Part shown: in pieces, positions 10,691 through 37,655 of the stretch | How the letters are laid out: every line of letters begins with the position of its first letter | Numbering within the stretch: the stretch's first letter is position 1 | The notes under the pieces: generated by a model | Seen by the model: the letters and a program-made list of their open reading frames with translations, nothing else | What the model was told of the DNA's origin: nothing | The model's database searches: none | Source: Corynebacterium deserti GIMN1.010 | GTDB taxonomy: Bacteria > Actinomycetota > Actinomycetes > Mycobacteriales > Mycobacteriaceae | Direction: 5' to 3' | Assembly (NCBI RefSeq): GCF_001277995.1 | Contig: NZ_CP009220.1 | Span: 806,001-870,000 of the forward strand | Length of the DNA stretch: 64,000 nucleotides | Translations under genes and position numbers: made by a program

Positions 10691-10764
10691 CGCGGGGTGG
10701 AGCAGCTCGGTAGCTCGCTGGGCTCATAACCCAGAGGTCGTAGGTTCGAATCCTGCCCCCGCTA
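10691..10764 (+). tRNA. Initiator tRNA-fMet (CAT), copy 1
   Basis: The cloverleaf folds with acceptor arm CGCGGGG/CCCCGCT, anticodon loop CTCATAA and T-loop TTCGAAT. Position 1 is C and cannot pair with position 72, and three G-C pairs flank the anticodon loop; both are initiator hallmarks. CCA is not encoded. The tRNA and its flanks (about 10687-10773) are repeated at 18757-18844. Confidence 0.97.
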
Positions 10765-10773
10765 CTAAGTTTC

Positions 10774-17756: not shown

Positions 17757-18130
17757 GGGGCTGACATGGTTTCGACTACGTTGATTTAGCCAGGGGAAGC
17801 GTGCCGGTGAAGGCTGGAGACCACCGTAAGCGTCGCAGCAAACCAATAAGCGCCGAGAAGTCTCAGCGCGACTACGCCCTCGCTGCATAATCCAGCGACC
17901 GCGTGTCTGTCAGCCTAGGGAAGTCCCTGACCTAGATCCTGGCATCGACTAAGGGACTTGCTATTCAATCGCGTCAGCGGGGTTGGATAGGACTTTTACC
18001 GCCGACTGGGCCCATCATCCGGAAGTGTTCGTCCTAGCCGGAGGGCCAAGCAGAGATCGTAGTACGAACTGCGCACGGAGAAGCCCTGGCGAGGTGACGT
18101 AGGACCCGGGTTCAATTCCCGGCAGCTCCA
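17757..18130 (+). ncRNA. ssrA: Transfer-messenger RNA (tmRNA)
   Basis: The 5' end GGGGCTGACATGG and 3' end with TTCAATTCC loop and CAGCTCC-A pair as the tRNA-like acceptor arm; CCA is not encoded. The tag reading frame (17852-17887, TAA stop at 17888) encodes AEKSQRDYALAA, ending in the ALAA degradation signal shared with mycobacterial tags. The molecule is about 374 nt. tmRNA with SmpB rescues stalled ribosomes and marks nascent proteins for proteolysis. Confidence 0.97.
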
Positions 18131-18136
18131 CCGAAA

Positions 18137-18168
18137 AGACCCCTACCTGGAAAAACAGGTAGGGGTCT
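18137..18168. terminator. Bidirectional terminator between ssrA and PorA-like ORF
   Basis: A perfect 13-bp stem (18137-18149 with 18156-18168, loop GAAAAA). On the minus strand it is followed by a TTTTC run, and on the plus strand by TACTTCTTTG. It can end both ssrA and the minus-strand small ORFs. Confidence 0.85.
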
Positions 18169-18186: not shown

Positions 18187-18291
18187 TTAGAAGGACAGGA
18201 TGCCCCGCAAGATGTCGATGCCGAAGCCGAGCGCGCTGCCGATGACTGGCAAATTCGCATAAAAATTAAAGAAGGTGTCGACGTAATGCAT
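18187..18291 (-). CDS. 34-residue hydrophobic peptide, PorA-like candidate
   Basis: Start ATG (complement of 18289-18291) has a textbook RBS, AGGAG eight bases upstream. The product starts MHYVDTFFNFYANLPVIG and ends DILRGILSF. It has no signal peptide, few charges, regularly spaced aromatic and aliphatic residues, and could form a single amphipathic or membrane helix. Size, lack of signal and pairing with a 55-residue acidic partner 38 bases upstream recall the PorH/PorA porin pair of the corynebacterial outer membrane (PorA about 45 residues). Sequence identity to PorA is weak, so this is inference. An alternative is a small membrane regulator or type I toxin. Confidence 0.6.
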   Translation of the reverse strand: MHYVDTFFNFYANLPVIGSALGFGIDILRGILSF

Positions 18292-18329
18292 GATGAATTC
18301 TCCTAATGAATGCGATGGAGTCAGAGTAT

Positions 18330-18497
18330 TTAGGAAGAGGAGTAATCAGTCAGGCTGGACAGGCCTATCTCTGCCAAGGTGGAATCCACAAAAGGAGAAA
18401 GGGCTACGACAGCGATGATCGTCTCGATGAGAAATGGGAAGCTCAAGATGTTGTTAGCAAAAACATTGAGTGTTTGCTGAAACAATACGGGATCCAT
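18330..18497 (-). CDS. 55-residue acidic peptide, PorH-like candidate
   Basis: ATG (complement of 18495-18497) with a weak purine-rich RBS, GAAAG eight bases upstream; a GTG nine bases earlier is an alternative. The product begins MDPVLFQQTLNVFANN and ends SSLTDYSSS. It has five acidic and no basic residues, a hydrophobic centre, and no signal peptide. From memory PorH of C. glutamicum starts MDLSLLKETLGNYE and ends NLDNFSS, is 57 residues, and is O-mycoloylated on a Ser near its C-terminus; start, length, charge and Ser-rich end agree. It precedes the 34-residue ORF by 38 bases in a likely two-gene operon ending at the 18137 terminator. A TGCTAAGAAT stretch upstream could be a -10. Confidence 0.6.
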   Translation of the reverse strand: MDPVLFQQTLNVFANNILSFPFLIETIIAVVALSPFVDSTLAEIGLSSLTDYSSS

Positions 18498-18760
18498 GAG
18501 ATGCACTTTCGGAGAATTGTCAGGGCTAGCTCCACTTCTGTGCGTTGCTCGCATGGGTTGAATGTGGCGCTCGAAGGAATCGTACCAATGGTGTAACAGG
18601 TTTGGAGCCCTTCTTAATGTATTCTTAGCAATATTTTGGGTTGAAAATGTTCTAGGGAAAAAGTTCAATAATTGGTAAATCCAGATTGTTGGTGTACATT
18701 CATTAAACGAAGCGTTAAGCAATCGCTTGACATCTTCAATGTGAACGTTTTTCACAGCGT

Positions 18761-18834
18761 CGCGGGGTGGAGCAGCTCGGTAGCTCGCTGGGCTCATAAC
18801 CCAGAGGTCGTAGGTTCGAATCCTGCCCCCGCTA
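18761..18834 (+). tRNA. Initiator tRNA-fMet (CAT), copy 2
   Basis: Identical over its whole length to copy 1 at 10691-10764, including flanking GCGT before and CTAAGTTCAA-like bases after. A TTGACA at 18727-18732 could be its -35 element. The upstream 160 bases are AT-rich compared with neighbouring genes. Confidence 0.97.
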
Positions 18835-18842
18835 CTAAGTTC

Positions 18843-18878
18843 AAGATCCCCCCTCAACTTTTGTTGAGGGGGGATCTT
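18843..18878 (+). terminator. Terminator downstream of tRNA-fMet copy 2
   Basis: A perfect 16-bp stem (arms AAGATCCCCCCTCAAC and GTTGAGGGGGGATCTT) with a TTTT loop. It occupies the same place as the copy 1 terminator but differs in sequence with both arms changed together. Confidence 0.8.
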
Positions 18879-19481
18879 GCGTTGGCGCATGGGGTGGGAG
18901 TGGGCGTCGAAAAGCAAAAGTTTTTGGGGGCCTCTCGGGTGCTGGAATTTCAATAGCCCAGCCATGTTAGGCGTGATGAATCGACGTGGTGGGTGTGCTG
19001 AAGCTGCTTGACCACGCCTGTTTCCCCGGCCAGCCAAAAGTGGAGGGAATTATTGGGAGCGTCATTCGCTAACTAGCGCAGCACGTCGGATGTGTAGGTG
19101 CCGATGTCGTCGATGGTGAGCTAATCACTAATGCTGCATTCCCGAGCCCGCCGAGAGGTAGGTCCGGATGGAGTATGAAGGTAGAAATCAACATCTAGCA
19201 CAATCTTGCGGTCACACACGTGAAGAGCTCTTGGCGCCATTAGGACTGTGTTTGAAGGAAGGCGTCGATATCGTCAAGCACCTTATTGCCTCCGATTGGT
19301 CCAACGCCGGAAACCCAATAGCTCGTGTCTACAAGAGTGAGAGACGGGAATTGATCGCGGTTTTGGCGGATTACTTCAGGTATTTCAGCTTCGTCGTTGG
19401 TTCATAATGTTAAGGTCTGACTGATGTAAATAGGGTTCGTTGAAGGCTGTGAGTAAGAGGGCTGACGGGGGCGTCGAAAAG
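18879..19481. other. Non-coding stretch with decayed gene fragments
   Basis: No intact gene that I can support. It has a minus-strand fragment at 19240-19401 and a shorter minus-strand tail ending LTIDDIGTYTSDVLR then TAG near 19080. An exact 18-base direct repeat occurs at 18902-18919 and 19469-19486. A 79-codon plus-strand frame at 19168 lacks a convincing RBS and overlaps the fragment antisense. Confidence 0.5.
19240..19401 (-). pseudogene. Start-less open frame, probable gene remnant
   Basis: A 53-codon minus-strand frame bounded by stops, with no start codon. It reads TNDEAEIPEVIRQNRDQFPS, then a coherent hydrophobic segment LTLVDTSYWVSGVGP and KVLDDIDAFLQTQ. Composition suggests a real protein in the past. 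VDTSYW resembles the first strand of PIN-domain nucleases, but the next part does not fit well, so I leave the family open. Confidence 0.4.

Positions 19482-36807: not shown

Positions 36808-37655
<848 letters not shown>

Follow-up and report, generated by a model that had tools for sequence, protein, structure and literature searches.

Between the ssrA gene and a tRNA-Met gene of Corynebacterium deserti two very short open reading frames lie in tandem on the minus strand, raising the question of whether they are genes at all and, if so, whether they encode a second porin pair of the PorH/PorA kind, as an earlier note on this DNA had proposed, or a membrane system of another sort. Coordinates in what follows are those of the window, by which we mean the whole stretch of 64,000 nucleotides that was analyzed. 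The gene of the longer peptide, pep1, occupies 18330..18497 on the minus strand and encodes 55 residues with no Lys or Arg, five Asp/Glu, an N-terminal Met-Asp, a G-L-S-S motif and a terminal S-S-S; that of pep2, at 18187..18291 on the same strand, encodes 34 residues with a single Arg, an L-P-x-I-G-S element and a serine at the penultimate position, Ser-33. The two are separated by 38 bases, 18292-18329, and pep2 is preceded by an AGGAG ribosome-binding site at 18300..18304 (minus strand, read from the sequence), 8 bases 5' of its ATG, so that the tandem arrangement, the frame lengths and the gap given in the earlier note, together with its acidic, Lys/Arg-free first frame that starts with MD and ends in a serine cluster and its good ribosome-binding site for the second, are all borne out. 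By eye the ribosome site of pep1 is weak and neither peptide has an obvious signal.

On one side the pair is bordered by ssrA (tmRNA, 17757..18132, plus strand) and on the other by the divergent tRNA-Met gene (18761..18835, plus strand). The bidirectional terminator that had been placed after the pair does exist as a stem of 13 pairs at 18137..18168, which belongs to ssrA and also lies 3' of pep2 on the minus strand; its action in both directions is less secure, as the scan reports it for the plus strand only and just three T follow on the minus side. Upstream, TTGCTAAGAAT at 18621..18631 (minus strand) is a weak candidate for the -10 region of the pair, chosen by eye on an alignment in which similar blocks line up in other tRNA-linked loci. 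A scan with sigma-D and sigma-H consensus sequences found no promoter upstream of any of the eight pairs described below, and is uninformative since the regions in front of three porH and two protX genes gave no hit either. A frame of 235 residues (18330-19037) that encloses pep1 is not a plausible gene because it runs through the tRNA-Met gene. Elsewhere in the window there is a second, identical tRNA-Met gene about 8 kb away (10691-10765, as against 18761-18835) and, at 37393-37598 on the minus strand, a c-di-AMP riboswitch upstream of a frame for a 198-residue, secreted-protein-like product.

Composition by itself does not distinguish these frames from chance, which is the point in favor of their being spurious: by a simple rule (two tandem frames of 30-70 residues with a gap of 0-60 bases, the first without Lys or Arg and the second with at most one) the window contains three such pairs, the present one included. 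The case for real genes rests instead on conservation and on frame-specific selection. Using pep1 of the window as a single query against 201 Corynebacterium genomes we obtained four further loci with E values of 3.1e-8 or better, the next match being at 0.022, and at all four an open reading frame of exactly 34 codons, with 53-65% identity to pep2, lies 30-54 bases downstream. A profile of these five pep2 sequences, searched against 242 genomes, added three loci (E 2.5e-19, 2.8e-12 and 1.4e-9) that had played no part in building it, each situated 15-48 bases downstream of a pep1-like frame. Profiles of all eight pep1 and of all eight pep2 peptides, neither independent of its own members, returned from the 242 genomes the same eight loci and none else at E <0.001. 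Weaker rows were dropped as chance, the best of them having E values of 0.022 (single pep1), 0.016 (five-pep2 profile), 0.006 (eight-pep1 profile) and 0.00104 (eight-pep2 profile, 19 such rows). In an even sample of 401 genomes from the family, the genus included, the strong matches to the pep2 profile were C. deserti itself (2.1e-20) and C. crudilactis (6.8e-17); five others at E 0.0036-0.0092, four of them partial matches in frames of 393-574 residues and one in a frame of 61 residues, are taken as chance. The pair is present, then, at eight loci in 7 of 242 Corynebacterium genomes, always in the same order and with a spacing of 15-54 bases, and the conservation of the frames in related species on which the earlier note had made its proposal depend is established.

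Substitution patterns lead to the same conclusion. Pooled over six of the eight loci (copy b of C. callunae and the C. crudilactis copy were set aside as their peptides cannot be aligned without gaps), pN/pS comes to 0.32 in pep2 and, over its first 48 codons, to 0.50 in pep1, both below the values for PorH (0.59) and PorA (0.58) from the same genomes. The true frames give the lowest values, wrong frames ranging from 0.43 to 2.02 for pep2 and from 0.64 to 1.64 for pep1, with the lowest wrong-frame value coming from the antisense frame in which third codon positions fall on those of the sense frame. In none of 500 column shuffles, for either peptide, was a value as low as that observed obtained. 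Substitutions hence follow codon position, which the earlier note had also asked of true frames. Both genes are under purifying selection and the pair is real; that the frames are spurious is rejected by the eight conserved loci and the frame-respecting substitutions, leaving it a practically negligible probability.

The genomes that carry the pair are those of C. deserti, C. callunae (two pairs), C. gallinarum Sa1YVA5 (G156) and C. crudilactis, where it resides on plasmid pCRULAC1, along with G044, G046 and G144, the last of which we take to be probably C. efficiens. Sources that give the C. callunae peptides a name call them hypothetical or uncharacterized proteins, and the gene table of pCRULAC1, which is incomplete, lists no gene over the pair. 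In C. deserti and in copy a of C. callunae (L085) the pair lies between ssrA and tRNA-Met, and in G044, G046, G144 and G156 it is enclosed by two tandem tRNA-Met genes, with ssrA 11-13 kb away in G044, G144 and G156 and on another contig in G046. Because the pair diverges from an adjoining tRNA-Met gene in six of the eight loci, pair and tRNA seem to move together. The remaining two, divergent copies are on accessory DNA: copy b of C. callunae (L086), about 48 kb from copy a, comes directly after genes of the type I modification and specificity kind that share its strand, and that of C. crudilactis is about 1 kb from an MmeI-like type IIG gene. Overall, the pair seems to travel either with its tRNA-Met or as part of accessory DNA.

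Several further features of these regions were recorded. Copy b of C. callunae (L086 1406-4001, from C. callunae G205:C1:816500-820500) is succeeded by a helix-turn-helix, transposase-like piece, and its pep1 carries a long Gly/Ser-rich tail. Near the plasmid pair (L151 1-10111, pCRULAC1 111005-121115) are also an IS6 transposase and aph(4)-Ia, which is listed as an aminoglycoside phosphotransferase gene. At the chromosomal ssrA of C. crudilactis (G186; L138 2047-3306) a 419-residue frame that by eye resembles a tyrosine integrase lies directly downstream of ssrA, which is therefore probably an island integration site in this species.

Profile searches of the whole genome of one C. glutamicum strain (G212) did not detect the pair. 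In this genome ssrA and tRNA-Met are arranged as in C. deserti, with a remnant of an IS4/5-type transposase between them where C. deserti has the pair. In a midpoint-rooted tree built from the 1.5 kb that precede ssrA in 11 genomes, G046 being left out, C. glutamicum groups with C. deserti, C. callunae and C. crudilactis (99/97) and is nearest to C. crudilactis (97/100). All three of these neighbors have the pair, C. crudilactis only on its plasmid. The simplest reading, for the one strain considered, is that the pair has probably been lost from C. glutamicum, repeated gain in the others being a possible alternative.

What might such a pair do? That it is a second system in its genomes, as the earlier note had supposed, is correct, given that PorH co-occurs in all seven; in C. 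deserti a PorH of 57 residues and a PorA of 45 residues are encoded beside groEL in addition to the present pair. Both peptides are hydrophobic by computation, pep1 having no Lys or Arg in any of the eight loci and pep2 at most one. The calculated masses of the window peptides are 5950.8 and 3809.4 Da, to which a corynomycolate would add 478, 504 or 530 Da (adduct masses from PMC5310785). The penultimate residue of pep2 is Ser in 8/8 and S19, which follows an L-P-x-I-G hinge, is likewise invariant (8/8); in pep1 the penultimate residue is Ser in six loci and the terminal one in seven. A G-x-S-S motif occurs in pep1 of C. deserti and in all 12 database relatives (the pep1 database alignment contains C. 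deserti and 10 of the other 12); among the exceptions to these patterns are copy a of C. callunae, whose pep1 ends SSGI, and C. crudilactis, whose pep1 is without G-x-S-S and yet ends SIISS. These positions recall the known sites of O-mycoloylation, namely S56 of the 57 residues of PorH and S15 of PorA (PMC12632848) and the penultimate S37 of the 38 residues of ProtX (PMC5310785), and a Ser-Ser signature has been named in an O-mycoloylation motif (PMC11175481). In an AlphaFold model with MytC, S15 of PorA is in a loop between two helices (PMC11927696). As S15 is invariant in our set of 20 PorA sequences, modification sites can be kept in evolution; conserved serines need not be essential, since the single changes S56A or S15A did not abolish surface exposure of PorH or pore function, as reported in PMC12632848. 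To judge from their placement, the serines are the strongest link between the pair and peptides of the PorH/PorA/ProtX type.

From the serine positions and the design of the two peptides we infer O-mycoloylation, a location in the mycomembrane and a joint pore. The two genes would be co-transcribed and their small hydrophobic products would likely be exported with no classical signal. These products would be O-mycoloylated, likely by the mycoloyltransferase Cmt1/MytC, on the C-terminal serines of pep1 and on S19 and/or S33 of pep2, and in the mycomembrane the two are predicted to build a joint hetero-oligomeric helical pore. The best reading, in our judgment, is hence of a sequence-unrelated second two-peptide mycomembrane system, likely O-mycoloylated and pore-forming. 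In its full form, a two-gene unit of signal-less, likely O-mycoloylated peptides predicted to build a hetero-oligomeric helical pore beside that of PorH/PorA, it is held with modest confidence, a little above even. Compared with PorH, pep1 has a higher hydrophobicity and a lower amphipathicity, and it could be a plain membrane peptide. The pair itself, its order and spacing, its conservation, the purifying selection, the conserved serines and the co-occurrence with canonical PorH are established directly.

A less probable alternative, though one to be reckoned with, is that these are O-mycoloylated mycomembrane peptides in the manner of ProtX without any pore formation; they might, for example, be a wall-linked element of the surface that could serve phages as a receptor. 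ProtX itself is a small peptide with a Ser-Ser end to which phage Cog binds as its receptor (PMC9671496). In C. glutamicum G212 an exact ProtX primer adjoins a 38-residue frame with Ser at positions 3, 10, 21, 32, 37 and 38 and a mass of 3874.3 that matches published ProtX (PMC5310785). We find ProtX clearly in C. deserti and C. crudilactis, partially in C. callunae and doubtfully in G046 (E 0.31), and do not detect it at E up to 1 in the pair-bearing G044, G144 and G156, the doubtful and missing cases counting in favor of this alternative. ProtX, however, has been described as a single gene, whereas the present genes always come as two, in an order like that of PorH and PorA.

A tandem of short hydrophobic peptides, two divergent copies of which are near restriction-modification genes, would also suit a membrane toxin, bacteriocin or regulator made of two peptides and with no connection to the mycomembrane, and the pep2 profile gives a match to bombinin H, albeit at chance level (E 0.98). 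We consider such a role unlikely. Typical bacteriocins are cationic, unlike pep1 with no Lys or Arg and pep2 with at most one; the stretch of the window shows no obvious linked gene for immunity or transport; and the C-terminal serines would be left unexplained. Scans of both window peptides with PADLOC and PHROGs gave no match, apart from one at chance level (E 0.18) for a relative in PHROGs. Nothing was found with tblastn of pep2 against phages or with the b peptide of C. callunae against plasmids, and profiles searched against PDB sequences gave nothing usable.

The mycomembrane peptides known so far are few, and those studied best are from C. glutamicum, whose examined genome is without the pair. 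A second, unrelated pair with matching serines would make it testable what Cmt1/MytC recognizes and how signal-less peptides cross the inner membrane. Features in common could then no longer be attributed to shared ancestry. Such a pair would further supply candidate receptors for phages in species other than the model; phage Cog uses ProtX as its receptor and requires PorA at a step after adsorption (PMC9671496). Surface peptides that are patchy, moved and lost would fit phage-driven turnover, which for this pair is speculation. A bolder and rather doubtful version of the favored reading has the pair as an independently evolved second two-peptide mycomembrane pore, tRNA-side and plasmid-borne, that was deleted from the model C. 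glutamicum. If so, lipid-tagged helical pores arose more than once in corynebacteria and have been exchanged between species, possibly under phage pressure.

It remains to compare the pair with the systems already described. We built alignments of 23 of 32 PorH places and of 20 PorA sequences, those omitted having unclear starts, being second copies or having no identified frame. Hhalign probabilities are 6.3% for pep1 with PorH (23 PorH) and 4.0% for pep2 with PorA, 0.8% and 0.2% for the crossed comparisons, and 0.9% (pep2) and 0.4% (pep1) with ProtX. The NCBIfam porH and pora_1 models do not match the window pair, copy a of C. callunae or the G144 pair, while they do recognize C. glutamicum PorH, at 39.5 bits (cut-off 30), and C. 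glutamicum PorA. Pfam and NCBIfam family scans of the window peptides returned nothing above chance. The diverged PorH/PorA pair put forward in the earlier note thus finds no support in the sequences, plain orthologues are rejected, and on sequence grounds the pair should not be filed as PorH/PorA. Because matched scores exceed crossed ones there is room for very old common descent, and the two systems share a start with MD and the placing of the longer gene first; with none of the hhalign scores significant, models that recognize the C. glutamicum proteins and not these, and a different locus, we regard it as quite improbable that the peptides are very diverged PorH and PorA. Among PorH matches elsewhere, two that lie about 0.65 kb apart (L116, G172:C13:1359589-1360396) may represent a tandem porH duplication. 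In the literature searched, largely papers available without subscription, we found no description of the pair.

With PorH/PorA of C. glutamicum (cg3009/cg3008) the pair has in common two small tandem genes, the longer first, products that are acidic to neutral with no obvious signal, and conserved serines at comparable places. Pep1 resembles PorH in being small and acidic with a C-terminal Ser (7/8 loci) that could be mycoloylated, and S19 of pep2 (8/8, after L-P-x-I-G) is a candidate counterpart of the modified inter-helix Ser of PorA. The differences are the lack of detectable homology and the position near ssrA or tRNA-Met, the porH of C. deserti itself being beside groEL. ProtX (cg2875, C. 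glutamicum), with 38 hydrophobic residues, no Lys or Arg, a Ser-Ser end and a mycoloylated penultimate Ser37, differs as a single gene with no detectable relationship; of the suggestions in the earlier note, the one closest in kind is a further mycomembrane peptide system comparable to ProtX, though with no detectable homology to it. PorACj of C. jeikeium (40 residues) and PorACur of C. urealyticum (37 residues) are set apart by their descriptions, in which they have groEL2 on one side and a gene for a polyphosphate kinase on the other and form homo-oligomers; by the same descriptions, peptides of 37-40 residues can form cell-wall channels and escape BLAST.
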